A stretch of 64,000 nucleotides of DNA from Gracilariopsis chorda (lineage: Eukaryota; Rhodophyta; Florideophyceae; Gracilariales; Gracilariaceae): positions 186,001-250,000 of the forward strand of contig NBIV01000049.1 in the NCBI GenBank assembly GCA_003194525.1, in the 5' to 3' direction. The notes under the pieces were generated by a model. It ran no database searches. It worked only from the letters and a program-made list of their open reading frames with translations, and was not told the origin of the DNA. Of the stretch, positions 5,363-50,383 are shown piece by piece (the first letter of the stretch is position 1; each line of letters begins with the position of its first letter). The translations under genes and the position numbers were made by a program.

Positions 5363-5414
5363 TTGCTCCAAGAACTTATCTGCGAAAGCAGGATTTGGTT
5401 CTGTTTGGAAGAGG

Positions 5415-13159: not shown

Positions 13160-13174
13160 CCGTTATTATCTTCT

Positions 13175-15848: not shown

Positions 15849-15911
15849 TTTTAAAGTCGGGATACGAATTACAGTCAGCGTTTACGGAGTTCTTATGTTC
15901 TTTTTAGAGTT

Positions 15912-16780: not shown

Positions 16781-16917
16781 TTTCTTGGCGAAGGATCGTG
16801 ACAGCCGGGGGGCGACGCTGTACTGTCTCGGACGTCAAGTTCGGCTCAGAAGACGCCCCTCCCGTGGGGTAGACTTTTGATTCTAGTTTTTCAAGGAGGG
16901 GCTCACTGAAATCGGTG

Positions 16918-32070: not shown

Positions 32071-32153
32071 AAGGTGATATTGTCCTTAAGGAATTGTATA
32101 ATTTAGATTTATTTTCGTTAATTGTTGCAGGTAATTACTATAGTAGTAAGACC

Positions 32154-32544
32154 TGTCGAGGCGGGCTCTCGGCACGGTACTTAATCTGCCGGTTGAGCTC
32201 CCGGCACGGTACTTAATCTGCCGGTCGAGCTCCACCTCTGGGGAAGTAAGAAAAGCACCCTTGAGTCTACCTCTACTCTTTCCGGTTGGAGACTCTTGCC
32301 CAACGCCTTCAGGTTTCTAAGCCGTCAATCTCCAGGTTGCCTCATAGCAGCGCCTGTAGGAGCATTGTCCGCCCAGTGAACCCCCTTCTCCGTTTGGTTT
32401 TTGCGGACCCCCTTTCAGGATTCCCCGGCTCGCGATCGTGATTACCGGAGACCACATCTAGGAACTCGCGCCTTTGGAGTCACCGAAAACTCCTAACGGA
32501 CGTTGTGTGCTATCAACTCGAAAGAAGAACTAACGATACCACAA
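32154..32544 (+). repeat. Element B 5' LTR (start approximate)
   Basis: End set by CCACA followed by AC and the primer-binding site. Start placed at TGTCGAGGCGGG; without a second LTR it is provisional. Near the start a 32-bp unit, GGCACGGTACTTAATCTGCC and flanks, is duplicated in tandem at 32171 and 32203. Confidence 0.55.
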
Positions 32545-32546
32545 CT

Positions 32547-32564
32547 GGTCTCCTGACTTAGAAG
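32547..32564 (+). other. Primer-binding site of element B
   Basis: TGGTCTCCTGACTTAGAA, two nucleotides after the LTR end CCACA. Differs from the C site by two T-for-C changes. Confidence 0.75.
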
Positions 32565-32719
32565 GTCAGTTTCCTAAAGGAATCACAAGAGTCGCGACAG
32601 AACAGTGTTGTTAGCTTGCATTGATTGGAACCCAACAGTGGAATTCTTCTTTAAGGTGATTCGGAAGTGGAAGGAAATCAACCCCGACCTACTCCTATCT
32701 GGACCTGTCAGAACCCCCA

Positions 32720-34972
32720 ATGGAAATCCCCTTACAGGACCCTCAAGCAACCGACTCCATCGGTGGGCGCAGCACGCACAGTGCTCCCCAGGAGATGGCC
32801 GTCAGACTGGATGACCCTAAAAGTCTCCTTCGGAACCCTGGCTCTTCTGTGCAGCGTTTCAGGAATCGCCTTAGGAGAGTGCACGATCGGAGGCAAGCGG
32901 AACCGCCCGCGACAACTCTGGAGAACGCCGACGTGGAGGTTGAAGAACCGCACACGGCATCGCAGCCGCCACCTCAGGAGCTGCAGGGACGGGAACACCC
33001 GGAGGCTAACTCCCTTTTGGAGTCACTGGCCCCACGCCTTACGGATTGGCTCTCACATGAGCTAGTCGAAAGAATTCCTGCAGGTGTTGAGACACATTTT
33101 GGGGCGCACCGCCACGCTCTTGTGGAGAAGATCGCAACGAAGAGCGCTTACAGGGCCGTGGGTGCCTTGCTGGATTCGGAACCCTTCCTAGAGGTGATCT
33201 CAGATGTTATCCGTGCGGAATTTCGTTCCCAAACCGCGCTGCTGCTCCCCGCAGCGGCATGTCAAAGTCATTCGTCCATACAGGAGAGGTTGCCTCTATC
33301 AACACCTAAGGTGACCCCGGCAGAGAAGGACAAGATACTGCCACCCCCTACGCCAGAGGAGGAAAGGATACTGCCGTAGAGAAACGGGGACACCTCAAGA
33401 ATACTGCTATGACCCGTCTGGACCTGTCGCCCCACGGAGGAGGACAGGATACCGGTCGCGAACTACTTCACCCAAGGAGAGAAGGACAGGATACTCCTCA
33501 GGTGAGTCGCGATAGCGGGGGTATCGTCAGGCACCCAGACAACCTACAGGAAAGACGCAGAAGGAAACGGAGGGAGAAAAGCAGAAAACAAGACACCGAT
33601 TCGGAGAGAAGCTCAGATTCTGAATCCGTGAACAGCTCCAGCTCGGAGGACAGTATAACTCCTAAGGAGAAAAGCAGAATGGTCAAGAAGGTCGTCCCGC
33701 TTAACGACCTCTTCGTCAAAGTGGTGGATTATGACACCTACCGTTTGAATGATCGCTCCACTCTTTACGAGGCGTCGGTCGCTAAACGACTTACGAAAAT
33801 CCAGCGCCGAATGGATATTCAGAAGAAGAAGCCTTCCTTCTCAGGTGAAGACCCCATCTCGGTGTTGAATTTTCTAACACGCTTCCGTTCGGCGTGTAAT
33901 ACCAATGGTGTGCATGAAGGTGCCGCCGCCTGGTGCTTTCAGTTCTACCTCACAGGCCAAGCGCACTCGCTGGTGCAGCCACGCCTCACGGGGGAGAGCA
34001 CCATTGTGGATGATCCTGGGACGGAGATCTTGACGACGTACCCCAAGGTGGTGAATTTCCTCCTTAAAAGGTACGCAACGGATGAGGTGATAGCCGATGC
34101 TGATGCTGAAGTCACCTCCTATAGGCAGAATACGGGAATGACCGAGACAGAGTTCTCCCAGAAGTTGTGGACGAATGCCTTAAGGTGCGGGAACGTGTAC
34201 CACGAACGGCGGCTGAAGTCGTTGTTTGTTGAGGGCCTCATGCCCTCAATCCGCGCCCGGGTTGCGTAATCACTTGACGACGCACCCGAAGACCACCTAT
34301 ACGGAGCTAGCACGTTTCGCGGAGTCCTATGGGGATACCCATCGTGCCGCTCGCCGCAGCCACGCTCCACTTTCGGACAACGTAGCGGCCTTAAGGAACC
34401 GTCGGGCATCCGCCCTGACGTTGGACTCCAGCACCTCAGAGGACGTTGACGAGCTCACGCTCGATGAAGAGCAAGACTCCCTTGCCCTCACATACGCCTA
34501 ATCTCAGGGGGCACCGTCTAGGACGAGGACACCCTCGTCCCCTACCTCATACGCTTCGGCAGGATCCTACAAGACTGTCCGATTTGCAAACCCTCGGGGC
34601 TACCCACCGCCCTGCAGGATTTGCTTGTCTCGAGAGCCAGTACACTGTACTACTCTCATCCCAGCAATTAGAGCCGCTATCCTGCAGGAACGGGAGAAAA
34701 ATTTCCAGGATCTGAAGGACACACCAAGGGAGAGCGGAAGTTATCGAACCGCATATCATGATATCCGCTCCCCCCAAGGAAACTACCGTTACCGCGTTCC
34801 AGTTGGAGTGCAGCCCGTCCCACTAGCACGTGCGCCACCAGTGCACGGGCCAGTACCCAAACCGGTTGCATCTCAGGGGAACACGTCGCATCCCGATGCG
34901 CAACCGCAGCAGCCGTCCCCTACTGGAACTCACATCCCCTCCAACCAGGGAAACCCTCAGGGTCACGCGTAG
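32720..34972 (+). pseudogene. Element B gag (two compensating frameshifts, one stop)
   Basis: ATG at 32720 opens frame 2 to 33379 (LTDWLSHELVERIPAGVETHF, then repeated KDKILPPP/EEERILP motifs). The frame then shifts and 33409-34269 carries a Lys/Arg/Ser-rich stretch, PLNDLFVKVVDYDTYRL and the capsid block RFRSACNTNGVHEGAAAWCF. At about 34,262 it returns to frame 2, with RNHLTTHPKTTYTELARFAE, an in-frame TAA at 34499-34501, and the zinc knuckle CRICLSREPVHC (C-x2-C-x6-H-C) before ending at 34972. The two shifts restore each other, so the ancestral gag was one frame. It overlaps pol by about 210 bp. Confidence 0.75.
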
Positions 34973-36624
34973 AGGCTCCGTGTGGCTCCTTCCCGTCGAG
35001 CCTCGGCCCAACGGAGGTTGCCTCTAGGAAAGGGGGAGAAGCCGTCTGCACGGTCGAGGTAGAATCGGCGGACCCCCCAATCCATTTAGACCCATTCGAC
35101 ACCTTTGAGGACTTTGTCTGCACACTCCGCCGTGAGAAGTATAAGGTGTTTGCCTCTATCGGATGTTCCTCACTCGCCTCCACTACGGTGCGCGCTATCT
35201 TTGACACCGGAGCTGGCCCCAACCTGGTGAACGCCGACGTGCTCCCGCAGTCTGCTCTCGGCTCCTTGAGGACTGGCAAGCTTCCTACGTTGCGAGACGC
35301 GTCGCGTCGAGCATTGAACATCCTCGGAGCATTACCTTTGTATCTCCAGTTGTGCTCCTTACAGGTGAAGATGTGGTTCCTTTTGGCGACCAACTTGGCA
35401 GCACAGTGCATACTGGGCACTTCCTTTGTGGATCGGTATGTACGTGCAATATACCCACGCCTGCGGAAGGTGACGTTTCACGACGCCGCTCCAGTAGGTA
35501 TCGTGTCCGCATCTCCGGGACCGGACGCCAATGCGCGTCAAGTGGGTAATCTTCCAAAGGAGACGCAGTGGAATAAGTTCCGGGTGGTGAAAAGTATCGA
35601 GATACCAGCGAGGAGTCAGGCCAAAGTTTGGGTGCAGACCTCTACATATGGCCTCTCATTCCTACAGGGGAGTCCGCATCTGACGACTAAGCAGCACTCC
35701 ATGATGGCGAACGGCGTTATGGAAATAGTGCCGACAGTTCCCTTCAGGGTCGTGCTTGCCAACCTGAAGGAGTCACCTCTGCGGCTTCAAAAAGGATCTG
35801 TCGTCGGATTGGCACTACCCGCCCCTGCAGGACTGGCTCATCTTCCTCGTAAGGAAGACGTTGCGGAACACGATGCTATCGCCACCATGGAAGCCAAAGC
35901 GGCATCAACGAATCCGGAGAAAGACAAGCCTGCCCCTTGGCAGGAGAAGCTCCAAATTGGCGAAGAGTTTAAACAGTATCGCCATAGGATAGTGGACATG
36001 CTATCCGCCTTTGAAGACATGTGGTCTGATCGCCTTGGACAGGTGAGCCTGGCCAAGCACCGGATCCAGCTCACGCCTGAGGCGAAACCGGTACACCAAC
36101 TCCTGATGAGAGCCGGGCCTCATGCGCGTGATTTCGAACGCGATGAGGTCCAGCGGATGCTGGATAAAGGCGTCATCGAGCCATACAATTCCGAATGGGC
36201 CTCCCCGGTGGTGTTTAAGAAGAAGAAAGATGGCTCCTTGAGGTTCTGTATTGACTATAGATGCCTCAACGAGGTGACGGTACGCGATTCGTACCCAATA
36301 CCCCGTATGGATGAATGTATCGACTCCCTCGGAGATGCGTCCGTCTTCTCCACGCTGAATGCCAATAGTGGCTACTGGCAGACTGAGATGGATGACTCCG
36401 ATAAGGATAAGACAACTTTCACCTCCCACTGTGGAATTTTCAGACTCCTAAGGATGCCATTTGGATTGAAGAATGCACCCGCTACGTTTCAAAGAGCGGT
36501 GGACATAATCCTGTCGAAGGTGAAGTGGCAGTACGCCCTGGTGTACATTGACGATGTCATCATATACTCCCGCAGCGTGGAGGAGCACTTTATGCATGTT
36601 CTCAGCACGTGCTCCAACTCCTGA
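34762..36624 (+). pseudogene. Element B pol, protease to RT (stops at a 2-bp insertion)
   Basis: Frame 1 is open from 34762 without an ATG, overlapping the end of gag in the -1 frame, so expression by -1 frameshifting is likely. Protease active site IFDTGAGPNLVNADVL is intact; then LGTSFVDRYVRAIYP and MANGVMEIVPTVPF. RT includes EWASPVVFKKKKDG, LRFCIDYRCLNEV, the first Asp region replaced by STLNANSGYWQ (usual Asp is Asn), and the catalytic box LVYIDDVIIYS. The frame ends MHVLSTCSNS because of a CT insertion at 36600-36603; the continuation is in the next frame. Confidence 0.8.
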
Positions 36625-38690
36625 AGGATGATGGACTCACCCTAAAACTGGAGAAGTGTTTCTTTTTCAAGTCCTCGGTGGATTACTTGGGGCACGTTGT
36701 GCTCCCGGGCCGCCTACGGGTTTCCACAAAGACTCAAGACCCCATCAATGAGGCTCACCCTCCCACAAACCAGACGGAGCTCCGCTCCTTCCTGGGGTTG
36801 TGCAATGTCTTTCGGAGGTTTGTTCCGAATTTCTCCCGTATTGCGGCGCCGTTAAATCGCCTCTTGGAGAGGGACAAACCGACGCAATTGGCCACCTTGA
36901 CGGACGAAGAGTTCGACGCCTTTAAAACCTTGAAAAGGAGACTAATAGAGCCACCGATCTTGGTTCTACCGAAGCGGAACGGCCGAATGGTGCTGGACAC
37001 AGACGCCTCAAAATACCAGGTTGGATGTGCCCTCCTACAGGAACAACCTGAAGGTGGACTTCAACCTATAGGATATTGGAGTCGCAGCCTTTCCCCGCCA
37101 GAGCGGAATTATTCCACCTCAGAGCGCGAATGTCTCGCGATTGTATGGGCGGTGTTGCTTTTACGCCCCTACCTGGAGAACGCGCGTTTCACCTTGAGGA
37201 CGGACCATGCACCACTGAAGTTGATACTGTCCTTGACAGATGCTTCCGGCCGCCTGGAGAAGTGGAGAATACGCCTACTGGAGTACGAGTTTGACACCGG
37301 CCACTGCCCTGGCATAAAACACCAGGCGGCAGACGCTCTGTCACGTATCTCCACAGAGAGGGAAGATAAAACACCTTTGGAGGACACTATTCCGTGTCTA
37401 GTCATCAATAGCGCCGACAGGAAAGAAGGATCCCAGGGAGAATGCGTGGAATGGTGTGAACCTAGAGGCAAGTTCACTGGACTCCCCGAGGTGATGCCCC
37501 TTGTCGAGGAGGAGAAAGAAGTTCTCCCCAGCACCATAGCGGAGTTCTTGAAGGAGCAGAGTACGGATACGTACTGCAAGGAGTGCCTCGCCACCGTGGG
37601 GAGTCTAACATCATTACTTGATTTTGACCACGACGGCGTCCTTGTACGCCGTGCTACCCTAAACGGTGCTCTCCAAAAGGTGGTCCCGGCGAGCGAACGG
37701 GCGAGGGTGCTGTACCTTTCGCACTACCCTCACCTTGCAGGGCACCCCGGTGATTCGCGCATGTACTTAACCATGAGGAGGGAGTTCTATTGGCCGCGCA
37801 TGGCTAATCATGCCTTCCAAACGGTGGCGGATTGTCACTCGTGCGCTGCCGCTCGGGGAAATATCCGCAAACATCGGACGCCGCTCACCCTATTCCCGCC
37901 TTCAGGACCTTTGGAGTTCGTGGCCATAGATATTTTGGGCCCTCTCCCCAAGTCGGAGAAAGGATATCGATTTATACTCGTGATCACCGATAGGTTCTCG
38001 AAGATCACGCGCGCCATCCCCCTTAGGAGCACCACGGCAGCAGTAATTGCCGACACCTTTCTGGAGAATTGGATTTACCCATATGGAATCCTGGTGTACC
38101 TCCTTACGATCAACGGACCCCAGTTCGTGGCGAAGCTACTCAGCGCTGTCACAGGAATGCTGGGGATGAAGCAGTTGTTTACCACTGCATACCACCCCCA
38201 AACCAACGGACAGGCGGAGAGGTTTAACAAAACCATCTCCTCAAGGCTGAAGCATTACGTCGCGGATCACCAGAAGGATGGGGACGCGTATGTGGGCCCG
38301 CTCACGTACGCATACAACCTACAGGTGCACCGCTCCACGGGAACTGCTCCTTTCGATCTGGTGCTCGCGCGCGTCCCGCCTAGTGCCGTTATCGCGTCAG
38401 GCCCCACGGCGCACCCGGCAGATGGGCCACAGGCACCAACAGCGGCTCAATCAAAGCGCTCCATTTTGAGGCGCTACGAGGACGCACTCTCCCTCGCAAA
38501 GGACAGACTCAACGCCTCGCAGAGGAGGTATAAACGAGATTTTGACCTGAAGGTGAAAGAAGGCCCTCACCTGAAGGAAGACGAAGAGGTTTTCCTCCAC
38601 AAACCTCGCGAGACGTCCAGTGAACCGCCGGAAGTCACGCTCAAGTTAGCGCCGAAATCTTCAGGGCCGTACAAAATCCTGGACACCTGA
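36609..38690 (+). pseudogene. Element B pol, RT end, RNase H and integrase
   Basis: Continues pol after the 2-bp insertion: LKDDGLTLKLEKCFFF, YLGHVV, SFLGLCNVFRRFVPNFS, RNase H with LDTDASKYQVGCALLQ, ERECLAIVW, TDHAPLK and ADALSR, then integrase with HLAGHPGDSR and CHSC (zinc), LEFVAIDILGPL (first Asp), LLTINGPQFV where the second Asp of the DNGPQF motif is Ile (codon ATC at 38109-38111), and HPQTNGQAERFN (Glu kept). It breaks off after SGPYKILD at the LTR of C. The lost Asp makes the integrase inactive even apart from the frameshift. Confidence 0.85.
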
Positions 38691-39512
38691 AGTGCAACGC
38701 CCTCAGACAGGGATTCTGGGTACTTGAACGCTTTCCCGATATTATCGGTTGTGTAGTGTGTATATGAATTACGCCCCACTATGGTGGATATGGACACGTG
38801 GGACACGGTTTTGGGTCAGTTGGCGGTTGGCCACAGTAGTGGATGTTGCCACGAAATGTGGAGTATTTTAGTTAATATTATTTATTATTTTCACACCCAT
38901 TTCTGGGAAGCTAGTACTTAGTGCGACGGCGCACTGCCGTCGCACCAGTAAACCTTCCCCAACAAGGGACCCCAACCTGGGGAATTGGCTCTAGTTGTTG
39001 CCGCTTGCGCGCGTACTCTACTCCTCCTTGGAGGGAAACGCCGTAAACCACGGGACATCTAACCCCCTTGCACATCTAAAGGGACCCATCACTGGGAGTA
39101 TAATTGTTCCAATTGCATTGGTGTTTCGCCCTGTATAGGGATATTGTTACCGGCATCGCCGTTCGTCCCCGTCGCTCTCGCGACTCACTTCGCCCTCTTT
39201 TTCTCCTCTTCGCCCTTCCTTTTTCCACTTTTTAGGGTAGCACCTCCCGCTATCCGCGGCCCTCGTGAGCGCATCCGCTCACACACCCCCACTTACGTGG
39301 AAACATACCTCTAGTGAGGACCACACCCCGCTCACGCGGATACCGATTCTTCGCCTTCACCTCCCTGCGCGAGTCGCGACAGGTGTCCCTGGTCTTACAA
39401 ACCGGCTTCGCCGTGACACCTCTGGGAGGGCTCTACCCAACTGGGTTCACCTCGTGAGAGGAAGATCCCGAACGTCTTTCGGTGTTTTTCCCCTTTGGGG
39501 CATTGCACCACA
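38688..39512 (+). repeat. Element C 5' LTR (825 bp)
   Basis: Starts TGAAGTGC, ends CACCACA. Homologous to 49400-50208 with about 40 differences by eye (about 5%) and several indels in the region 39150-39240. Packed with micro-hairpins, for example 38970-38982, 39023-39034, 39308-39319 and 39328-39339. Contains the promoter of the plus-strand transcript; a TTATTTATTATTTTC segment at 38880 is the only long AT tract. Confidence 0.92.
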
Positions 39513-39515
39513 AAG

Positions 39516-39533
39516 TGGTCTCCCGACCTAGAA
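39516..39533 (+). other. Primer-binding site of element C
   Basis: TGGTCTCCCGACCTAGAA, three nucleotides after the LTR end CCACA. Reference sequence for the site shared by B, D, E and F. Confidence 0.78.
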
Positions 39534-39617
39534 TCGGTTTTTGTTTTCCCTCTTACGAGGTTTGTTTTTATTTACCGGAAGTTCCGTGATCGTTTCCCGT
39601 CGTAACGGTATTTTCTC

Positions 39618-41791
39618 ATGTCGAGAAACCCTCCGACGCGGAGCCAGTGGTTACGCGTAGTCGCTCCCGCGACAACGCGGACACTTCCGAAGTTCGGTTC
39701 ATACCCCGTATCCCCATACGGACAAGTTCCAGCCGTGCTGGCGCCGCTTCATCGCGGAATGATACCCCCGACCGGGAACCCCGGAACCTCCTTTTGCCCT
39801 CGTTATCACCCCCGCAGGGGAATGCAGCATCGACTCCGGCTGTTGCCGCAGTGCCCCAGGCACCTTGGCCTGCTCCCGCTGTCGCGGCTTCAAGCCCCCG
39901 TGGAACGGGCGATAACACCCCCCAGGAGACTTCCCTGGAATCCCAGGTCCGCGCTCTGTGGACCGCCCATGACACCCTTGTAGGGGAACTAAAATCCCTC
40001 CAAGAGGTGGTCTCGGCAACCCCCGTAAAGGAGGTCGCCGAGGAACTCCGTATTTTACGGTCTGACGTCAACTCCGTGTTGGAGAGTTTGGGACAACCCG
40101 CCGCCTTCATCGAAGGAGATGAAGCCCGATTTGATCGGATTGGTGCCCGCCTGGAGACGCTGGAGCAGTTCGTCCTCATGGACAAACCATCCCCGGGTGA
40201 TCCGGTAAACGAGGCATCGCACAACGACCAGCTTGCTGGGAAGAAGAAACGCCGTCATTGACGGAAACACCACCGAAAATATTCGGACTCCGATTCTTCG
40301 ACATCGTAGGACTCATCCTGAAACCATTCGGTTAGCTCGAGCTCCTCGGACTCCGACTCGGAGGACGAGAAGCGAGGCTACTCCTCCCACTCGAAGCGGT
40401 CATCGGCCACTGAAGGTGTGGTCCGAACCCGCCAGAAGGGGAGAAGACACCCCGGTCTCCGGGAACTGAAACCGACAAACCCGGATTACCGGAAGCTTTT
40501 ATCATACCGGTACTACCGGCTCGAAGATTCGTCACTTGGACGTACGCCCCGTGGTACGGGAAAGGTGCGAGAATGCATTAAGCGAATGCAGCTCTCGCTC
40601 CGCAACCAGTATTTTACTGGAGAGGACCCAGTCCTAGTACTGGATTTCCTATCCCGCTTTGTAGCGGAGGCCGATATCCTCAGTATGAATGAGGGACAAG
40701 CCTATTTGGCTTTACCGTATTTCTTACGGGGAGTGGCGGAGGACCAATACACCTCTGGCAGAGGATCTTCTCGCGCCTCCGAGGGAGGAGTTACTTGCTG
40801 GCCGGAGGCTGTGCAGTATCTTCTGCGCTCCTACACCACCAACAACGCTATTCAGCAGGCTATCCTCGCTTTGCGAGATACACGCCAGCGTGCTGGAGAG
40901 ACCGAGACCGACTACTCGGTGCGCCTTAACAAGGCTTTCCACAGATTTGGTAACGTATACCCCGCTGGGGAGCGCAGTACCATGTTCATCGATGGTCTTG
41001 ACCCGGCAATCCGGAGTTTAGTTACCCGTTATCGGGAGGACAAGCGGAGGATCACCTACCTCGAGCTGGTCCAACACGCTCGAGCGGAAGGGGATGCACT
41101 TCGTGCAAGAACTCCGAACAATCGGTCTAAATCCGCCAAGGCGTTGTTGCTGGAAAGCGAAGCTTCCTCTCTCTCGCTCACCGCGGATGGGAACCCTGGA
41201 CAGGGATTTGATACCGTGCATTTAGTGCAGGGGGATGGTTTGTCGATACCCACCAGTGATTTGCCGTCAACGACGGAGATGACCCGTGATACGGGAACGG
41301 AAGACCCCGTTTTGTACAGTGGTAACAGTCGGGTTCAACCCCAACGACTCCCGTTTTCAAACGGTCAATCCCGTTATCAACGGTCTGGATGGACTGACAC
41401 CCGCCCTGCGGTTCGCTTCTCTGATACTCGGAATAATAATCCGCGTGTCGCGGTGTTGGCTCTCATATGCCACCTGTGCTATACCCACGGCCATACCTCA
41501 CCTCAGTGTATTTGTTCACTGAAGGATATGGCCAAGGTAGTGGCAAATTATGAGGCCCTCACTCCAGAGGAGAAACGTTCCGTCCCGACGGCTTCCTACC
41601 TCCGTGCTAAAACGGACTTTTCCCACGCCCTACCACAGACCCCGCGTGCGCGGCAAGCTTCATACACCCCGATTCGGGAGATCACGCAACCATCCGTTGC
41701 AACCCCCGCTTATGCGGATAGAAACCCCCGTCAACGGGATGAAGCACTCGTTGTCGAGGAAACCAACCCACCGCTGAAGGCGGAAAACTAA
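39618..41791 (+). pseudogene. Element C gag (three clustered stops, start shifted)
   Basis: ATG 39618 (MSRNPPTRSQ) is followed within 30 bp by a frame change into the main frame (VTRSRSRDNADTSEV), judged from the gag starts of D and E. The frame runs to TGA at 40259, then contains TAG and TGA before 40335 in a Ser/Asp-rich stretch (SDSDSSTS, SSSSSDSDSEDEK), and is open again to TAA 41789-41791. It includes KGRRHPGLRELKPTNPDYRKLL, LVLDFLSRFVAEADIL, FIDGLDPAIRSLVTRYREDK and a canonical zinc knuckle CHLCYTHGHTSPQC. Stops at CAT-TGA and TCC-TGA contexts look like CGA to TGA changes. Confidence 0.8.
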
Positions 41792-42378
41792 CTGAGGGAG
41801 TCTCCCCTTTGGGAGAGGCGTCCTCAAGAACGAGGCTGTTGGCGCCCGAGGCGTCCTCGCCTCGCTCCCCGGTGAAAGTCCTCTCGAGGAAAGACACCGC
41901 TGACGCGGACTCTGCGCACCTCGGTGTGTTGCGTCGCCCGTGGATACGGAGTAAAAATCCCCGGATTCCCGGTAGAGTCTTGGTCTTGGCCAAACGCAAT
42001 TATAAGGTCTATGCCGACCTTGGCCTTGAACCCCAGTTTATGGTGAGGTTTCTCACCGTCCTGGATACAGGTGCAGGCCCCAACTTTGTTGTGGAATCAT
42101 TGTTACCCCCACTTGTGCGGTCGCGTATCCGCTCTGACGCGGTCCCCGACATTTCGGATGCGAACAACAATCCGTTACAAACGGTGGGCACAGTGGACCT
42201 CGTCGTGAGACTTGGTACCTCTGTGGTGAAGTTGTACTTCATCGTTTGCCGTTCATTGGCAGCACCAGTCATACTGAGATGTGATTACTGCGACAGATTT
42301 GTCGACGTAATCAGGCCCCGCCTCAGGCGTGTAGAACTTGACGACGGATCGTCGGTTCCGATTGTTCGCCCCCACTAA
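41743..42378 (+). pseudogene. Element C pol start: aspartic protease
   Basis: Frame -1 relative to gag, open from 41743 and overlapping the end of gag by 49 bp. The protease has LTVLDTGAGPNFVVESLLPP, catalytic Asp intact, and ends with LAAPVILRCDYCDRFVDVIRPRLRRVEL, the counterpart of LAAQCILGTSFVDRYVRAIYPRLRKV in B. A TAA at 42376-42378 interrupts the frame before the linker. I found no convincing slippery heptamer in the overlap. Confidence 0.75.
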
Positions 42379-42380
42379 AG

Positions 42381-43910
42381 CGGTCCTCTCGGAAACAAGT
42401 TCCGCTCCCTGCTGCGCAGGAACCACCGCCCGCGTCCCGCGAGTCCACCAAGCTCCGCGTCGCTGCCTCGGTTTCTATACCGGCTGAGTCCCAAGTGTGG
42501 GTGCAGGTAAATTCCCGTCAACACGGTCTTCGGGTTATACAACCCCTCGCCTCGTTGTACGAGAAATCCCAGCTGGCGCTGGCTAATGGAATTGTCTCCA
42601 TTTCCCCGGATGTCCGTTTCCGGATATTGGTTGCCAAACTTGGCAAACACCCCCAGTATCTGGTCAAACACCAAGTAATTGGGAGTGTAACCCCCCATCC
42701 TATGGGAATGCTGCCAACAAAGATGACAGCCGCCGATGTACTCGGAGTTACCACCTCTTCTGAGGAGTTCGCCCCGCCGTCCGAAGACGTCAAGTCTAAG
42801 GAGGGGGAGGAAACCGCTACTTCAGCGTCGAACATACCGAGTAACTCGGAATTGCGAACCACACCTGTTCCACAGGACAATGCTCTATCGAGCAACGACC
42901 GGATTGATCCGGAAAAAGTACTTGAAGCGCTGGACTTCAGCCACGTGCCAGTGTCGCACCGCGACAAACTCCGTACTATGTTACGGGAATTCACCACAAT
43001 GTGGGATGGCTCGCTTGGCGAGATTAATGCAACGGAACACCGGATCGATTTAATCCCCGGTGCGCACCGGTTGCACAACCCCCTTACAGGGCAGGTCCGA
43101 AAGCTCGGGAAGAGGAGCAGTCTCAAGTGGACAAGATGCTCCGCGCAGGTGTGATTGAGCCCGCTCAGTCACCCTGGGCATCTCCAGTTGTACTGGCTTT
43201 AAAGGCCGACGGAACCTGGAGGTTCTGTGTCGACTACCGCCGGCTCAATGCCGTGACGGTTAGGGCACGTACCCCATCCCTCGTATGGACGAGTGCATTG
43301 ACTCCCTTGGAGACGCCACCGTGTTCACGGCCCTTGATGCCAATTGGGGATATTGGCAAGTACCTGTCAGACAGGAGGATTGCGACAAAACCGCATTCAC
43401 CTGCCACGCAGGAACGTACCGCTTCAAGCGGATGCCATTTGGGTTAACCAACGCCCCGCCACCTTTCAGCGTGCAGTAGATATTCTACTCAACCGCTTTA
43501 AGTGGCGGAGTTGTCTGGTCTACCTTGATGATATTATCATCTTCTCCAACTCGTTGGATGACCATCTCACTCACGTCCGAGACGTGCTGACCGTACTCCG
43601 CGATGCGGGAATTACCCTCAAGTTGAGGAAATGCGAGTTTTTCACAGATACTGTGAAGTATCTGGGTCACATTATCCGTCCTGGACGGTTAGCGATCGAG
43701 AAAGCTCGAGTCAAATCCCTCGTTGAGGCGAAAGAACCCCGTACTCAAACGGAACTGCGCTCCTTTCTGGGGCTGGTCAACGTCTATCGACGGTTTATCC
43801 CGAACTTTTCGGATACTGCATCGCCCCTGAACGCGTTGTTGCGAAAGGGGAACCCCCAAAACTGGGAACATTTACGCCCGAGCAATCGGAAGCTTTTAAC
43901 TCTTTAAAGG
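42381..43910 (+). pseudogene. Element C linker and reverse transcriptase (several frameshifts)
   Basis: 42495-43154 carries the linker ALANGIVSISPDVRFRILVAK and LDFSHVPVSHRDKLRTMLREF. 43127-43447 has KMLRAGVIEPAQSPWASPVV and WRFCVDYRRLNAVTV, then shifts. 43285-43479 has MDECIDSLGDATVFTALDANWGYWQVPV (first Asp) and KRMPFGLTNAPP, then shifts again. 43344-43907 has LNRFKWRSCLVYLDDIIIFS with an intact YLDD box, CEFFTDTVKYLGHIIRPG and SFLGLVNVYRRFIPNFS. At least three indels. Catalytic residues themselves are intact. Confidence 0.8.
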
Positions 43911-45549
43911 AGGCTGTCACATCAGCTCCAATCCTACATCTCCCAAAACTTGGGTTGCCATACTCCGTAGATACGGACTAGAGCGACTACCAAGTCAGGT
44001 GTGCTGTTTTTCAAACCACCCCGAGGGGGAACGACATCCAATTGGTTATTGGTCACGTTCGCTCAATGTTCATGAGCGGAACTACTCCGTATCGGAGAAA
44101 GAGTGCCTCGCCGTCGTATGGGCGATGACCACTCTGCGCCCCTACCTTATGGGAATTCACTTCACCGTGTACACGGATCATTCCTCATTGAGGTGGTTGA
44201 TGAATATCTCCGACCCGTCGGGACGCCTCATGCGCTGGAGACTCCGCCTCGCGGAATATGACTTTCAAGTCATTTATAAAAAGGGTGCGCAGAACACCCA
44301 GGCCGACGCTTTGTCGCGGTTACCCACAAGTGGGGAAGCACTCCCAACGGAGGATGATGAAGTCCCATGCTTCATGGCTATAAACCCGGATGATCCGGAA
44401 TATGCCGTCGAGGCTAGGCCAGAAACCTGGGACGAGGATGCTGATTTTGACGAACTACTCGCATCGCGAGATAAATCTGAGAACCCGTTACCGGGAAACT
44501 TTGTACCGGTATCACCGGAAGAAATGATCCGAGAACAATTCGGCGACCCATTCTGTACGAGAATTCGTGCCCGTATCAACGGTGGTGAAGATCTCCCTTT
44601 CGGGGTAAACGACAAAGGCTACCTCGTAAGAAAGGTCGAAGCCCGCCCACAGATTGTGGTACCACATTCCCTGCAATCGCGGGTGTTACATCTATCACAC
44701 TACGCTCCCATTGGAGGTCACCCAGGTGGGAGGAAACTCTACCTAACCCTGCGAAGGGATTTCTATTGGCCCGCAATGGCGGTGGATTGCTACGCAACTG
44801 TGCGGTTTTGTAGCGAATGCGCGAAGAATCGCGTCAAACTCCGCAAAAATGCGAAGAAGATGAAACTATTCCCCGCAAGGGCGCCACTCGAGTTTATCGC
44901 AATTGATCTTCTCGGACCACTACTCACCACAAAACGTGGAAACAAGTTTCTACTTGTCATCAGCGACCGCTTTTCTAAGCTGGTACGGACTGTCCCTCTT
45001 CGGAGGATAACCGCTCTCACGGTGGCCCAGGCTCTGGTGACGCACTGGATTTTTGTGTACGGTCCCCCTGTGGAGGTGCTCTCTGACAACGGGAAGCAGT
45101 TCGTGAGCAAGTTCTTCCAGGATGTTTGTCGCATCCTGGATGTCAAGAACTTGTTCACGACTACCTACAACCCCAGTGTAATGGGCAAGTTGAACGGTTT
45201 AACCGGACGATTACTCGCGGCGTTACGTTCCTACGTCGCTGACCACCCAACGAATTGGGATCTCTACGCTGATGCAGTAACCTACGCGTACAATACGCAG
45301 GTACACCGGACTACAGGAGTTTCGCCATTCGAGTTAGTTCTATCTAGAACACCCCCGCCTGTGGCGCTGGAACCCCAAGCTACCTTGGACAATTTCCCAT
45401 CTGTGGGTATCTACCGGCAGCAATGGAAGCAATGGCTTTCCAAGCTGGTCCCCGCTGCGCGGAAGTCTATGGCACGGGCCCAAGCCGCTTACAAACGGAA
45501 TTTTGACGCTCGCGTGCGAGGAAAAACCGTCCCCGATTCAGGCAAATAA
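43911..45549 (+). pseudogene. Element C RNase H and integrase
   Basis: A frame of 516 codons open from 43999. RNase H shows YWSRSLNVHERNYSVSEKECLAVVW, TDHSSLRW and QADALSRLP; the first Asp region just upstream is cut by a TAG at 43979. Integrase has a zinc part HYAPIGGHPGGRK and RFCSECAKN, first Asp in LEFIAIDLLGPL, second in EVLSDNGKQFVSKFF. The Glu box that should read GQVERFNRT is read as GKLNGLTG because of two compensating indels over 45173-45212, so the frame stays open but the catalytic Glu is lost. Ends at 45549 after a shift in an A-run near 45525. Confidence 0.8.
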
Positions 45550-45823
45550 CTACGTCTTCATCAGGAAGGAATACTACAACCCGGAACGGGAGAAGCGTCA
45601 CAAACTCTCGCCGGTGGCGGATGGACCCTTCAAGGTGATCTCTGTTAACACCGACACTGTCGTGGTAGAGATGGGGGACACGCACGAACGGATTTCCCGT
45701 GATCGTGTTGTCCTTGCCCCTCATCCTTCGTCAGAGGTAGTCCTGGATCCAGGCAACCCCGTTTCTACGGACTCCGCTACACCGGAACAATCCGGGAGTA
45801 CTAGACCTACGGTACTACCATAA
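45503..45823 (+). pseudogene. Element C integrase C-terminal domain
   Basis: Open piece with NNYVFIRKEYYNPEREKRHKLSPVADGPFKVI and VVVEMGDTHERISRDRVVLAP, the DNA-binding C-terminal domain of gypsy integrase (GPFKV and the R-V-V-L-A-P end). It is in frame 2, the frame used by the linker and chromodomain further on, ending TAA 45821-45823. Confidence 0.75.
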
Positions 45824-46909
45824 CCCAGCCGGGGACTCTCAGACCTACCGACTCTGTCGGACTCACCGGCTCAGCCGGGTAATTCGGGCCCCTCAGCGCC
45901 TGCCCCTACCACGTCTGCCCCACTGGCGCGCATCTATATCCGCCAGGCGGGGAATGTTATCCCTTATCCCGCCGCTCCGTCTAAGGAGGGGGAGGAGAAC
46001 ACTCGTTTTCGAGGAACGATATCACCGTCGCAACGGGAAACACACCGTAACATACGGAACACTGACCGTGGAGCACGGAGTATGTCACGCGACACTAATC
46101 CCCCGTTCCCGGGCAGTGCTGTGCAACAGGAACCAGACGCGCAGGCCCCGCAAAAGCGGCAAATACACCGTTTGTCACGGGAAAACGAGAAGCCTCACTA
46201 CAATACCGCAGCTGCGGAAAGGCAATCGCCCGATGCCTCGAAGCCGCCGTTGGCGGAAGTCCCCGCGGAAGCGGTTCAATCAGGTCGATCAGACCCGCGC
46301 CCTGCGGAGAAGGGGCGCCCAGATACGCCGGCCTCACAGGGGAATACCCAAACCCCTCTTGGGGAAAAAGGCGGCCAAGCTGCAGTCGAAGCTTTAAGCC
46401 CTGGCTCGCAAGCACCGGAAACGCCTCCCGTCGTTGACGGAATCAAAGCCCCCGCTACGGGGAATAATTTGCGCCAACCCCCGCATCGCTGCGGAGAAGA
46501 ACCGAGGAACTCGGGAATAACGCGCGCCATCGCACGCTCGAAAGCGGTCATACCGGACGCTGCTCCTCCTCACGGAGATGGTGCACTGCGCTCAGCGGCA
46601 ATTCCCCTGAAAAGGGTGTCATCGGCACCTGCCCAGAACCCCCCAAAGGGGAATTTTGACCAAAATACCGGTGTACCGGAGTTAGCCCCAGGCAACCCGT
46701 CAGTAGCCGGGGACACCACGGCGTCGCCGGAACTTATGGTGCAGAGCGCTCGTGCGCCTGGCAGGGAGGCGGTTTGCCACCCAATCACCGTGTCGCACGG
46801 GACCCCCCAGGGGATTGTGGAAATGCCGATCCCGCAGGAGCGGTCATCTTCCCGCAAACTCGCGGTTCGTGAGCTCAACCGCGAACGCGGAGCCCAAGTC
46901 CCCCGCTGA
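45824..46909 (+). pseudogene. Element C Pro-rich linker between integrase and chromodomain
   Basis: Frame 2 continues, with stops before 46082 and an open stretch 46082-46909 of 275 codons, very rich in Pro, Ala, Gly, Gln and Glu with no recognisable fold. It connects the integrase C-terminus with the chromodomain, a distance of over 350 codons where other chromoviruses have almost none. The DNA is one of the densest regions for micro-hairpins. It ends in TGA 46907-46909. Likely disordered linker; whether it was ever translated is inferred only from the shared frame. Confidence 0.5.
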
Positions 46910-46957
46910 CTGGCGGTTCGCCCGGCCTACCGTGAAGACGGGAACAACGACACCCCA

Positions 46958-47365
46958 ATGGGGAATGACTTGCCGGGGAAAACCGTGACACCACACACCC
47001 TCTTGAGGGATATTTTCCCGCATGAGCAGCAGCCACTAGGACAGCGCACGGCAACGTCGGAGTTATCGCCGAACACCCTGCTAAGGGACATTATACCGCA
47101 CAGCGGGCAGCCCCCGCAGGGAAGTACAACCACCACCCGGCACGGCCGGCAGGTCTACGAACGAGAGTTCGTAGTAGACCGACTTGTCGGACACACCTGG
47201 GACCAGGATGGTATTCTACAATACCGCGTCCGCTGGTACGGGTACGACCCCAGTGGGGATACGTGGGAGCCAATTGAACACCTCCCGCGGTCGCAGGTCC
47301 TGCGATACCACCGTCAAACGGGAACCCTAGCCCCAGCCACGCTGGTTAATGTCCAAGTTGGGTAA
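46958..47365 (+). CDS. Element C chromodomain
   Basis: A 135-codon stretch with QVYEREFVVDRLVGHTWDQD, then QYRVRWYGYDPSGDTWEPIE and HLPRSQVLRYHRQ. This fits the chromodomain fold, with aromatic residues at Y/F (EREFVV), W (VRWYGY) and W (DTWEP). In chromoviruses the domain binds modified histone tails and directs integration. It ends TAA at 47363-47365. Separate from the preceding linker by one stop in the same frame, hence probably the C-terminus of the ancestral polyprotein. Confidence 0.8.
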   Translation: MGNDLPGKTVTPHTLLRDIFPHEQQPLGQRTATSELSPNTLLRDIIPHSGQPPQGSTTTTRHGRQVYEREFVVDRLVGHTWDQDGILQYRVRWYGYDPSGDTWEPIEHLPRSQVLRYHRQTGTLAPATLVNVQVG

Positions 47366-47556
47366 CGTTGCCGCGCGAGCGGAGAGCGAAAGGAAAGGAT
47401 AACAAGGCAAAGTCCGTCGAAGACGGGGAACTCAACCGAGAAGCACCGTTCTAAACGGGAAAGTTTATTCAGGGGAGCAGCTAGCTCCCCGCAATACTAC
47501 ACTACACTAACTGGCATAGCCAGGGAAAGAAGAACCAGGAAACTGGACCAGACGGT
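47366..47556 (+). other. Spacer between pol and antisense cassette
   Basis: About 190 bp without a frame. It separates the sense stop (47365) from the end of the antisense cassette (47557) and is where convergent transcripts would terminate; no terminator motif recognised. Confidence 0.4.
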
Positions 47557-47820
47557 TCACTCATCCCCATCGTCCGGGGCGTAACCCCCAGCAAGGCGGT
47601 AGGCCAACGCGTCCGCCATGGTGGTGACATCCCCCGATACCTCGGCAGCGCTAAGACCGGCACCCCGGAGGAAACGTGCGATGATTTCGTTTTCATTCGC
47701 CGCCACCCCGCTGGGGATAGAAGGTCCGGCACTTGCCGCCGAAGGGTCAGCAGCCGGCTCGGCCGGAGATGCTCCCTCTGGGAAAGCTTCCGCACTAGCG
47801 CCGGTTTTCTCTACGTCCAT
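47557..47820 (-). CDS. Antisense ORF 2 of element C (87 aa), overlapping ORF 1 end
   Basis: ATG at 47820 starts 7 bases before the stop of the upstream antisense frame, giving the overlap ATGGACGTAG. The product is acidic and Ala/Pro-rich at first (ASPAEPAADPSAASAGP), then a probable helix NENEIIARFLRGAGLSAAEV and MADALAYRLAGGY, ending DDGDE. No family recognised. The 10-base overlap would fit translation by reinitiation, or a +1/-1 shift making a fused product; alternatively it is a chance frame. Its position directly behind the long frame argues for a linked cassette. Confidence 0.4.
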   Translation of the reverse strand: MDVEKTGASAEAFPEGASPAEPAADPSAASAGPSIPSGVAANENEIIARFLRGAGLSAAEVSGDVTTMADALAYRLAGGYAPDDGDE

Positions 47821-49343
47821 CTCCCCGGTTCTTCCGGTTCGTTATCGACCATTGGGTCATCCCCGCCATATGCGCGGTAGTAGTCGTCGGAATCGACGTA
47901 CCCCACCGGGTGGTCTTCCGGCACATTCCGGGGCGTATCGCGAAGCTCGCGCGCCTCCTCGGAGGAAATTTCCCGGAACTCCCAGGGGTCGAAGTAGATA
48001 AAATCCCCAGCAAGGGCGGTGTTTCTACCGAGTCCCGGACCACCGGTGTTACCGCTACCGCCATCCAGACGACCACTTTGCTCCAGCGGGACCTCACTCC
48101 AGCTAACGCTGTCGATGTACCCAAGTAATTGGAGGACCTCTTCATTGTTGGCCTGGCCCCCAAGGGGGATGCGAAGATCCAGGTTTCGGATCGCTGCCCG
48201 CACACGCGGTTGAAGGAACCAGAGACGATACTGGTCGTATGCCTCGTTGAGGATATAAGCCGCACTGCGGGCCGCCCACTCCGTAACCACTACGGACCAC
48301 AACCCCGACCGGGGATCCTGCATGAGCAGCGAACTGAGGTACGTAAGTACCGGCGGGAGTTCTATGTAGCACCCCCGGCAGGCTTCATGGAAGCGCCACC
48401 ACTCGTGGGGTGCTACATACCGACCTAGTCGGTGAGGCGGCGCAATCCGCTCTATCTCCACGTTCTGATACGGGATAAAATACCGGAATCGGGATCGCCA
48501 ACGCCGCTCGTAGCGGATGAAGTTTTGGAGAAAGTTGGACCGGTATTGCCGGGGAAGGTACCTGAACTCCGCCCAAATAATCAGTCGCTCCCAGCAAAGG
48601 GCCTCTTGCCGCGCTGCGGGGAAATTTCTCCAAGCGAGGGTCTCGAGGCGTAACAGGTTCTCGCCGTACCCAATCTCCCCGCGAGTGCGGAAGTAGCTAA
48701 CGTCGAAGCCAAACTCCGGTGGGACCGGTACATCGAATGGAGCCCGGCTCTGCCGTTGAAACGCCATGCGCGTCAGCGCGGTCTGTGCCGCAGTGACGGT
48801 CTCGCCCGAGTTTCTTCGGAGGTGGTGACGCGGAATCGCAATCCGGTGACGCCAATCCCACGATGTGGTGACTGCTCTGGGCAGATCCCCCGGAAGGGTG
48901 TATGAACCATCCGCATAAGCGGTGACCAATCCCTCATTGAGGACGGCGACCGGGTGAAACCACGGGGCAAGGCGCAGGCGCGACGCGTGATTCCGATTCA
49001 TCGGGTTGAGCCCCACCAGGGTGTTGTAAGTTGGCCAGTTGGACACTGGAGTGGTTCCGGAGGACACCACCGAAGGTGGTAGTGCGAAGGGATGGTCGGC
49101 TGCCGCAGCCATATTCCCCGGTTGTACCGGATTTCGATCGCCCTGAGGCAGGGGAACTGACCGGAAACCGGTGGTGTATCGCCCGAGTAGTCTCGGCGGT
49201 TGGCTGTGGTTGTTGATATTGTTGTCGTCGTTCATTTTTCCCTTTTGGAGGGTGGCTGTTGTTGTCGTTTGTGTGCTTGATGACTCTGGTGCAGAGAGAT
49301 TTACCGGAGAACCGGAGACAAAGCACGCGCTTTTATCACCCAT
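47811..49343 (-). CDS. Antisense ORF 1 of element C (510 aa), function unknown
   Basis: Uninterrupted frame on the strand opposite to gag-pol, from ATG 49343, only 57 bp inside the 3' LTR, to TAG 47811. A second ATG at 49236 (MNDDNNINNHS) is an alternative start. The protein has a Thr/Asn/Pro-rich N-terminal 100 residues, a middle rich in Arg, Trp, Tyr and Phe (RRWRSRFRYFIPYQ, EWWRFHEACRGCY) and an acidic tail (DSDDYYRAYGGDDP, NEPEEPG). No membrane span, zinc finger or known enzyme motif seen. Antisense frames between pol and the 3' LTR are known from some plant gypsy elements, where their role is unclear. It is intact although gag and pol of the same copy are broken many times. Confidence 0.6.
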   Translation of the reverse strand: MGDKSACFVSGSPVNLSAPESSSTQTTTTATLQKGKMNDDNNINNHSQPPRLLGRYTTGFRSVPLPQGDRNPVQPGNMAAAADHPFALPPSVVSSGTTPVSNWPTYNTLVGLNPMNRNHASRLRLAPWFHPVAVLNEGLVTAYADGSYTLPGDLPRAVTTSWDWRHRIAIPRHHLRRNSGETVTAAQTALTRMAFQRQSRAPFDVPVPPEFGFDVSYFRTRGEIGYGENLLRLETLAWRNFPAARQEALCWERLIIWAEFRYLPRQYRSNFLQNFIRYERRWRSRFRYFIPYQNVEIERIAPPHRLGRYVAPHEWWRFHEACRGCYIELPPVLTYLSSLLMQDPRSGLWSVVVTEWAARSAAYILNEAYDQYRLWFLQPRVRAAIRNLDLRIPLGGQANNEEVLQLLGYIDSVSWSEVPLEQSGRLDGGSGNTGGPGLGRNTALAGDFIYFDPWEFREISSEEARELRDTPRNVPEDHPVGYVDSDDYYRAYGGDDPMVDNEPEEPGRWT

Positions 49344-49388
49344 TTTCGTCTGGGAATCCTCCGCGTCCGCGGTCGTTTTCCCGTCTTA

Positions 49389-49399
49389 AGGGGGGGATA
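49389..49399 (+). other. Polypurine tract of element C
   Basis: AAGGGGGGGAT immediately before the TG of the 3' LTR; the standard primer site for plus-strand DNA synthesis. Confidence 0.75.
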
Positions 49400-50208
49400 T
49401 GAAGTGCAACGCCCTCAGGGAGGGATTCTGGGTACTTGAACGCTTTCCCGATATTATCGGTTGTGTAGTGTGTATATGAACTACGCCCCACAATGGTGGG
49501 TATGGAAACGTGGGACACTGTTTTGGGTCAATTGGCGGTTTGCCACAGTAGTGGATGTTGCCACGGAATGTGGAGTATTTTAGTTAATTTTATTTATTAT
49601 TTTCACACCCATTTCTGGGAAGCTAGTACTTAGTACGACGGCGCACTGCCGTCGCACCAGTAAACCTTCCCCAACAAGGGACCCCAACCTGGGGAATTGG
49701 CTCTAGTTGTTACCGCTTGCGCGCGTACTCTACTCCTCCTTGGAGGGAAACGCCGTAAACCACGGGACATCTAACCCCCTTGCACATCTAAAGAAACCCA
49801 TCACTGGGAGTATAACTGTTCCAATCATATTGGTGTTTCGCCCTGTATAGGGAGTCCTGTCCACCGGCATTGCCGTATCTGCTCGTCGCTCTCGCGACCC
49901 ACTTCGTCCTTCCTCTTTCCCCTTTTTAGGGTAGCACCTCCCGCTATCCGCGGCCCTCGTGTGCGCATCCGCTCACACCCCCCCCCACTTACGTGGAAAC
50001 ATACCTCTACTGAGGATCACACCCCGCTCACGCGGATACCGATTCTTCGCCTTCACCTCCCTGCGCGAGTGGCGACAGGTGTCCCTTGTCTTACAAACCG
50101 GCTTCGCCGTGACACCTCTGGGAGGGCTCTACCCAACTGGGTTCACCTCGGGAGAGGAAGATCCCGGACTTCTTTCGGTGCTTTTCCCCTTTGGGGCATT
50201 GCACCACA
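49400..50208 (+). repeat. Element C 3' LTR (809 bp)
   Basis: Starts TGAAGTGC, ends CACCACA. See 38688-39512. Six micro-hairpins differ from the 5' LTR only in their loops (for example 49412-49424, 49488-49499, 49821-49833). Confidence 0.92.
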
Positions 50209-50383
50209 AAGCTCGAGAGATTCTTTTCGAGCAGTTTGACTCTTTTCTCGTTTAGCTTTGCTTTTTTCGAGGCGAGCTGTCTGCTGTTGCATAGATTGTG
50301 GCATGTTGTGGACGGGAGGAGTGCGGATGTGGAACCATCTGTAGGACTGCTGGGAGTGGACAGATATGTGAACAAGCTGTTAA

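Follow-up and report, generated by a model that had tools for sequence, protein, structure and literature searches.

Chromoviruses are Ty3/gypsy elements with a chromodomain, and yeast GC clusters and double-hairpin elements are inserted elements of intergenic regions. In the sections of PMC3662417 that treat them, dispersed packaging signals of single-stranded RNA viruses are described as many degenerate short stem-loops spread genome-wide and recognisable only as structure; MS2 has 60 sites, STNV has a loop motif, and the interaction with coat protein was shown. Ty3 genomic RNA probed in yeast is portrayed in the available part of PMC11381356 as combining stable with dynamic regions in a mosaic, and the portion of PMC2800124 at hand reports repetitive hairpin-forming elements in sponge mitochondrial DNA.

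Element C, located within a 64,000-nt window of the Gracilariopsis chorda genome, shares with the chromoviruses (Ty3/gypsy, Metaviridae) the LTRs, the gene order protease, reverse transcriptase (RT, assigned by homology), RNase H and integrase, and a chromodomain after integrase, but an array of CC..GG mini-hairpins and a conserved antisense gene set it apart from them. As in MS2 and STNV, many degenerate stem-loops under selection are spread across the genome (gag lies mostly below the depth limit of the copy test described below); unlike those viruses, element C has more than 200 sites whose shared feature is the stem base, is a reverse-transcribing element and has a putative protein partner. 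Across its whole length it has more internal base pairing than shuffled sequence, which recalls GORS; GORS is a statistical folding excess, whereas element C repeats one uniform hairpin type of fixed size, base and flanks. Ty3, also an LTR element, has structured regions dispersed through its genomic RNA, although the part of PMC11381356 available describes no uniform hairpin array for it. The sponge and yeast mitochondrial elements also place many hairpins in one genome, but they are intergenic insertions as far as the source portions go, and in element C every stem differs and hairpins also occupy coding sequence. The literature searched, in the parts available, held no description of such an array or of this nucleic-acid organisation, and the accessible main text of PMC3713064 (G. 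lemaneiformis) contains neither "hairpin" nor "palindrom".

Organisation of element C and its hairpin excess

Table 1. Element C and its parts, in window coordinates.
Feature	Position	Strand	Basis or remark
Element C, LTR chromovirus bearing CC..GG mini-hairpin array	38688..50208	+	LTR pair, Pfam matches, sister-copy chromodomain, hairpin counts
5′ LTR	38688..39515, end approximate	+	832 columns vs 49400-50211, 92% identity
gag / nucleocapsid / start of pol, several frames in this copy	39590..43154	+	open reading frames
Reverse transcriptase segment	43455..43874	+	tblastn to P0002 residues 9-148, 62%
RNase H and integrase open frame	43900..45549	+	PF17917 2.8e-30, PF17921 2.7e-13, PF00665 8.3e-11
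C-terminal pol / linker to chromodomain region	45741..47810	+	
Oppositely coded ORF, conserved protein	47811..49385	-	524 aa stop to stop
Purine-rich tract adjoining 3′ LTR, probable polypurine tract	49389..49399	+	sequence; putative PPT role
3′ LTR, hairpins as in 5′ LTR	49400..50208	+	
Array of 264 non-overlapping CC..GG stem-loops	38700..50196	.	stem 4-8, loop 2-8; 29% of element

P0002, the reference for the RT segment, bears PF00078, and a protease motif, DTGAGPN, was read by eye. A sister copy encodes a gag of 467 aa, a nucleocapsid (NC) frame with CX2CX4HX4C (a zinc-knuckle motif read by eye) and pol. In a sister copy a chromodomain lies downstream of rve (Chromo PF00385, 6.3e-10), and in a sister copy the antisense ORF has 595 aa, as against 524 aa in element C. 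The antisense gene is present in four related families; of the eight "families" compared, five (F532, F69, F42, F146 and F71) are 93-95% alike and were counted as one. Of 8000 candidates scored against its protein, 2 reached E<=0.001; Pfam gave nothing over its cut-off and PDB no match. Across the whole window, no Rfam family was found at gathering score and the tRNA search returned none.

The initial annotation had described element C as saturated with CC..GG hairpins in LTRs, sense genes, linker and antisense gene alike, a distribution that codon choice could not cause. All 11 of its example hairpins lie exactly where it placed them (three recur once in the other LTR), and the saturation proved real and stronger than claimed. 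Counting CC-start stems of 4 pairs with 2-5 nt inside, element C has 241, compared with 23.2 (sd 5.0, maximum 38) in 100 dinucleotide shuffles; distributed assembly or protection signals in retroelement genomic RNA are usually argued from faint statistics, and here the signal is about tenfold. GG-start stems number 30 vs 23.0 in the shuffles. CC stems number 22 vs 1.8 expected in the 5′ LTR (38688-39520) and 55 vs 7.3 in the linker region. Codon-preserving shuffles, run on an open sister copy (L059/L060, 60 shuffles each), fell far below the observed counts, bearing out the point on codon choice: gag 37 vs 4.8, NC frame 22 vs 2.6, pol 51 vs 7.7 and 73 vs 13.3, and antisense gene 43 vs 8.6, every gene region tested exceeding the maximum of its 60 shuffles. 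Element A (4740-10724), proposed beforehand as a comparison, has no excess, unlike element C (1 CC stem vs 5.5 shuffled); element B (32001-38687; 55% GC) has 11 vs 10.3. The remaining window has 44 vs 26.2, a surplus to which a decayed relative at 13-17 kb contributes, and the 1-kb hairpin profile falls to background at either end of element C.

Build and predicted folding of the hairpins

In element C and its sister families the hairpin has a set build of mismatched flank, CC, two or three further strictly Watson-Crick pairs, a loop mostly of 2-4 nt and a mirrored arm ending in GG, for a span of 11-13 nt; in element C the density is one per about 45 nt. Stems of 4-6 bp had been proposed, and 258 of the 264 have 4-5 pairs counted from CC, longer ones being rare; the proposal that an A often follows holds for 131/264 stems, partly as a matter of composition. 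Watson-Crick extension at the stem base is avoided (52 vs 103.7 expected), which gives the hairpin a defined length. T before CC is avoided both in antisense-coded regions (15/148 vs 137/531, p = 3e-5) and elsewhere (60/368 vs 289/1297, p = 0.014), and A after GG is favoured in LTR and sense regions (p = 1e-4) but not significantly within antisense regions (p = 0.12). The avoidance of extension makes these two flank signals interdependent.

Stem tetramers and loops vary widely from hairpin to hairpin; no strong single motif marks the loops, and what the hairpins share is CC/GG at the base. With related families counted together, GNRA tetraloops (28 vs 12.0) and their complement, corresponding to the minus strand (18 vs 5.1), are enriched among 262 tetraloops. 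At pair 4, C.A mismatches (U.G on the minus strand) occur 37 times vs 7.6 expected and TG 20 times vs 6.7, and GT and AC about as often as chance predicts. The mismatch favoured is not plus-strand G.U, and the pattern is hard to square with a simple plus-strand RNA helix. Where pairs have changed between families, G.U is in excess on neither strand. G.U tolerance, taken as an indicator of the working strand, gave a mixed answer, which we count against the plus-strand genomic RNA as the working form.

Neighbouring hairpins 16-25 nt apart are in excess in element C. The spacing of ~20 nt is clear there (p = 0.001-0.002) and marginal in C2 (p = 0.035-0.067); gap-shuffle nulls were not exceeded, and local periodicity is only partly supported. 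In 60-nt windows the mean folding z is -0.66 for C, -0.48 for C2, -0.06 for host sequence, -0.22 for B and -0.43 for A, the hairpin-free element A thus also folding somewhat better than shuffled. Folding energy lies below that of shuffled sequence along element C, as in GORS, with a modest effect that is equal on both strands (-0.66 and -0.645). Predicted plus-strand pairing is 0.41 for CC hairpins, little above the 0.33 of chance hairpins.

The initial annotation had also likened the array to mitochondrial GC clusters and double-hairpin elements, a likeness that turned out to be superficial. Mobile inserted hairpins were rejected as an origin: stems and loops differ throughout, and in the antisense gene C and C2 align over 1,159 columns with few gaps where only one of them has a hairpin.

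Selection on the stems

Comparing inherited with private variants gives a direct reading of selection on the hairpins, and this shared-versus-singleton test is usable on other repeat families as well. The copy test covered 57 loci (L001 and L007 left out; L009 and L039 are the window itself). Leaving out BLAST pieces of <88% identity or <300 bases and sites with <12 copies kept 7,136 of 10,712 sites, and most of gag was lost below this depth limit. Shared variants are those in at least three copies and singletons those in one copy, mostly post-insertion; variants occurring in just two copies (stem 32, loop 24, outside 182) belong to neither class.

Shared variants numbered 12 per 1274 stem sites, 55 per 497 loop sites and 289 per 5365 sites outside. 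Singletons per site were 0.254, 0.181 and 0.219, respectively, indicating that stems mutate normally after insertion. Three of the 57 loci overlap others from the same copy; a recount without them keeps 5,605 sites and gives 10/1010, 48/393 and 257/4202 (stem vs outside, shared vs singleton, p = 2e-14). No shared stem variant occurs in the LTR (0/176 sites) or the antisense region (0/264), and only two fall in the 864 sites of stem pairs 1-3; the linker region is the richest in shared variants overall. Hairpins defined in another copy give the same depletion (8/914 and 4/507). Two controls stay close to background: CC/GG dinucleotides lying outside CC hairpins (57/1272), and CC..GG at matching spans but lacking inner pairing (22/444). 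The few GG..CC stems have shared variants at 0/114 sites and other non-CC stems at 24/795, about half background; given this depletion, CC may not be the whole rule.

Between families, when C is compared with C2 and with F532, identity at third codon positions is 0.66-0.76 in stems, 0.27-0.35 in loops and 0.43-0.44 outside. Compensated pairs are modestly higher than control among C, C2 and F532 (0.09-0.20 vs 0.07-0.09) and not above control for C2 vs F164, whose copy contains stops and aligns poorly in frame with C (0.53). One clean compensated hairpin, at 46930, reads CCGT..ACGG in 15 copies and CCGC..GCGG in 5. The stems are thus shown to be under strong purifying selection during element replication.

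Candidate roles and distribution of the array

Preserved by selection along the whole element, the ~240 CC-to-GG hairpins suggest a genome that functions as a long string of hairpin beads. Our best explanation, held tentatively and at a little short of an even chance, is that they are candidate Gag/nucleocapsid sites along the genomic RNA. The working form would be the full-length genomic RNA, because flank asymmetry keeps the plus orientation even where the gene is antisense and because this RNA contains every element part, U3 included. Each hairpin would be a putative low-affinity site for the element's own Gag, which may read the CC/GG base and fixed size rather than the loop sequence, and hundreds of sites would together tag the genome and compact it into the particle, an arrangement of dispersed packaging signals taken to an extreme. 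The NC frame with its CCHC zinc knuckle counts in favour, as do the enrichment, the selection on stems, the defined hairpin length and the trait's restriction to one pol clade. Against it stand the mismatch pattern at pair 4, the weak margin in predicted plus-strand pairing, the strand-equal folding excess, the lack of a strong loop motif, the modest spacing statistics and the shared-variant depletion in non-CC stems. Another formulation, possible but rather doubtful, has the genome as a selected polymer of uniform CC/GG-based 12-nt mini-hairpins, a protein-independent second code over all genes and LTRs that would be read by protein at ~20-nt spacings or multiples.

The main rival to Gag sites, which we consider unlikely, is a shield against host RNA surveillance, in which the hairpins would make the RNA, or small RNAs of 20-22 nt cut from one strand or the other, fold on themselves and serve RNAi badly as guide or target. 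In mammalian cells GORS RNAs escape innate sensing, according to the part of PMC3950689 available. The genome contains two Piwi-domain matches of full length and free of stops, together with two long ORFs that carry tandem RNase III domains; the hairpins are too short for Dicer-type enzymes, are held at 4-5 pairs with extension avoided, lie near 20 nt from their neighbours and, present in all parts, would serve either strand. However, flank asymmetry favours one strand, other abundant families of the same genome do without hairpins, and the CC..GG rule is left unexplained, GG..CC stems stacking equally well.

A function at the DNA level, with palindromes extruding or folding in double- or single-stranded DNA (cDNA or integrated copy) for chromatin, integration or replication, appears less probable again. 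It would suit the strand symmetry of CC..GG, the strict Watson-Crick pairing, and the U.G-type mismatches and GNRA tetraloops seen on both strands, but the flanks are strand-asymmetric and 4-bp stems form poor cruciforms. Moreover, stems gather singletons freely once inserted, and the resident DNA is therefore unconstrained.

Slightly less probable still is structured RNA for reverse transcription or translation, such as RT pausing in RNase H register or the prevention of long-range misfolding. The whole genome is a template, selection acts while the element replicates, and the ~20-nt spacing resembles the polymerase-to-RNase H distance of retroviral RTs; yet hairpins of 4-5 bp are weak obstacles, the spacing statistics are modest and the CC/GG base rule goes unexplained.

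Two causes had been put forward initially, selection for a beaded structure and template switching by the RT that turns near-palindromes into perfect ones. The former gains support from the stem depletion of shared variants and the silent-site conservation between families. The latter, a mutational by-product, is contradicted by these results and very improbable: it would account for strict Watson-Crick pairs in all regions and for their confinement, within the window, to the element and a decayed relative, but under it the two arms of a stem should drift together, with changes reaching the partner arm at a neutral rate, and few compensated changes are seen. Since inherited variants are nearly absent from stems, though present in loops and outside, and third positions are conserved, the hairpins are selected rather than by-products; template switching also leaves unexplained why CC..GG, and hardly GG..CC, is in excess. 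An artefact of composition, codon bias or repeats has a negligible chance: at 56% GC element C is richer than much of the window, but dinucleotide and codon shuffles refute it, as do the GG..CC control and GC-rich neighbour B.

Scans of viral contigs gave no relatives of element C, so other red algal elements were compared as proteins only. The element C clade offers a natural system in which to ask what recognises such hairpins. In sampled families of the other pol clade, in the same nucleus, hairpins are mostly weak or absent; related families at 66-71% DNA identity also bear arrays, and the trait follows one pol clade (FastTree support 0.999).

CC..GG hairpins in element C and its clade

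Element C is a chromovirus, as indicated by its LTRs (92-96% alike), its encoded RNase H and integrase, and an open sister copy elsewhere in the genome (L059/L060) with gag, an NC frame carrying a CX2CX4HX4C knuckle, integrase and chromodomain, along with a protease motif that, like the knuckle, was recognised by eye. Gag-pol of the window copy is broken across several frames; open copies are present in the genome, which totals 91.3 Mb and whose contig C49 contains the window.

The initial annotation had described C as saturated with short hairpins based on CC and GG, and all 11 of its examples are in place. Against dinucleotide shuffles (n = 100), C holds 241 CC..GG stems where 23.2 (sd 5.0) are expected. 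GG..CC stems, a natural control because CC..GG is identical when read on either strand, number 30 against 23.0. For CC-to-GG spans of roughly 9-16, inner pairing exceeds expectation, most strongly at 11-13; at these latter spans C and the related family C2, pooled, reach 380 four-pair CC stems against 30 expected (GG, 43 against 32.5). GG..CC dinucleotides are somewhat raised in C at spans 10-15 (100-117 versus ~82) without inner pairing, as expected from the gaps between hairpins. All four bases are found at inner stem positions, so the pattern reflects base pairing, not a protein half-site. Codon choice had been discounted as the cause, and codon shuffles indeed fall short of the hairpin counts in 5/5 reading frames tested.

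Stems have 4-5 pairs in 258/264 hairpins of C and loops 2-4 nt in 208/264, and Watson-Crick extension outward past CC and GG is avoided (52 versus 103.7 expected). Neighbouring hairpins are 16-25 nt apart in 31% of cases in C (23% expected under a hard-core model) and in 25% of cases in C2 (18% expected), and distances of 26-35 are underrepresented. A ~20-nt period exceeds the hard-core null in C (p 0.001-0.002) and marginally in C2 (p 0.035-0.067), and is not above a gap-shuffle null in C or C2 (p 0.056 and 0.76, respectively).

Coordinates of features in the window
Feature	Position	Strand	Remark
Element A	4740-10724		623-bp end repeats
Decayed relative of C	13000-17000	-	
Element B	32001-38687		neighbouring element
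Element C	38688-50208		
Stretch including TGGTCTCCCGACC	39516-39540		directly 3' of 5' LTR; TGGTCTCCCGACC is a plausible primer binding site
Hairpin inside that stretch	39523-39537		
Largest gap without hairpins in C	42185-42407		223 nt; possibly protein-constrained
Linker	45741-47810		between integrase frame and antisense gene
Hairpin with compensatory switch	46930		
Oppositely coded (antisense) gene of C	47811-49385	-	between pol and 3' LTR; conserved across families

CC hairpins are also enriched in C2, in the pol relatives L076, L077 and L078 (spans 10-14: 12 versus 2.3, 17 versus 3.0 and 16 versus 2.5) and, still, in the decayed relative (18 versus 2.8). All of these form a single clade with C (FastTree support 0.999), the decayed relative grouping with L078. 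Of seven families sampled from the other pol clade, five show little excess (observed/expected: L069 5/2.5, L070 5/4.5, L072 7/4.3, L073 3/3.4, L075 4/2.9) and two a weak one (L071 11/4.8, GG 10/4.0; L074 10/2.9). The proposed contrast with element A is borne out, its CC hairpins lying below expectation (2/5.2), and element B has no CC hairpin excess (5/4.8). Across 101 kb of window and locus sequence in which blastn gave no hit to the hairpin clade, 5 CC hairpins per 600 bases were reached in three windows, one in L072 and two overlapping in L074.

L075 and L074 present a small AC..GT stem excess (12 versus 2.9 and 8 versus 2.0), mostly ACC(N)..GGT in L075, possibly a different hairpin rule. 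Element A shows a mild GG..CC excess (13 versus 4.8 in its ORF; 9 versus 5.3 over its full length when loop size is more tightly limited), and its 623-bp end repeats are 100% identical, indicating a very recent insertion.

Stem conservation between families and among copies

The antisense gene was compared among four independent families (C, C2, F164 and the F532 group), all retrieved via this gene and all with hairpins. Between C and C2, 17 hairpins (of 38 and 26) are co-located, against a shift-null mean of 2.4 and maximum of 8. Third-position identity for C against C2 and F532, in both directions, is 0.66-0.76 in stems, 0.27-0.35 in loops and 0.43-0.44 in the rest; the corresponding ranges are 0.68-0.79, 0.47-0.50 and 0.51-0.54 for C2 against F532, and 0.85-0.91, 0.74-0.85 and 0.72-0.74 for the closer pair C2 and F164.

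Copies of C (57 loci) were aligned on the window copy and sites with at least 12 copies retained, gag being barely represented (137 sites). The per-site frequency of single-copy changes, which mostly arose after insertion, is 0.254 for stems, 0.181 for loops and 0.219 outside. Variants in at least 3 copies, therefore mostly inherited via replication, fall on 12/1274 stem, 55/497 loop and 289/5365 outside sites (10/1010, 48/393 and 257/4202 after removing three loci that overlap others of the same copy). By stem pair they number 0/288, 2/288, 0/288, 6/288 and 4/118 from pair 1 to pair 5. LTR stems carry none (0/176) and the linker has 0.027 per stem site, 0.248 per loop site and 0.130 outside, so protein coding is not required for stem protection. 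Protection persists when hairpins are defined from another copy; we estimate that picking hairpins in one copy can reduce variants in stems by a factor of about two at most, versus the nearly sixfold seen. The hairpin at 46930 shows a complete compensatory switch between subfamilies.

Shared variants are not depleted at CC/GG dinucleotides that lie outside hairpins. The GG..CC stems of C, few and barely enriched, have 0/114, and other non-CC stems 24/795, under the background of 346/5956, which takes in every site not in a CC stem; both low values count against a CC-only rule.

Working molecule and candidate readers

Hairpin flanks are strand-asymmetric and retain the element orientation. An A after GG is favoured in sense and LTR regions (172/362 versus 389/1085, p 1e-4; antisense-coded regions 57/146 versus 205/642, p 0.12), and a T before CC is avoided in antisense-coded regions (15/148 versus 137/531, p 3e-5) and in sense and LTR regions (60/368 versus 289/1297, p 0.014). 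This orientation suggests that the working molecule is the genomic RNA or its cDNA rather than the antisense-gene mRNA, and the hairpins probably work as RNA. Speaking against the genomic-RNA reading, pair-4 mismatches are tolerated with C.A above U.G, excess folding is the same on both strands, and GNRA tetraloops are found on both strands.

A putative protein gauging a short hairpin with a CC/GG base would account for the constant base and size, for the avoidance of extension and for the indifference to loop sequence, as well as for hairpins throughout the element's genome, U3 included. The element's own Gag/NC would be the obvious candidate; if so, the hairpins may be dispersed packaging or condensation sites, resembling the packaging sites proposed for MS2 and STNV (PMC3662417). 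The antisense protein could also be a reader. In the sister copy it has 595 aa, with 61% identity to the database protein P0121 and 55% to P0122 (BWQ96_03215); it gave no Pfam match above cut-off and no PDB match. P0122 is recorded as a Gracilariopsis chorda protein, and its residues 1-491 are matched with 100% identity in the genome studied here, which is therefore very probably that of this red alga.

The main rival to a hairpin-measuring protein is a shield against RNA surveillance, since the host carries Argonaute- and Dicer-like genes; such a shield leaves unexplained why GG..CC would not serve. Piwi-domain matches in the genome comprise two full-length and 44 further, partial ones, many with stops (contigs C483, C648, C777, C944, C882, C626, C317, C345, C785 and others). 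Several partial matches lie ~8 kb apart with opposite-strand pieces nearby, and the overall pattern suggests amplification of a sequence derived from Argonaute.
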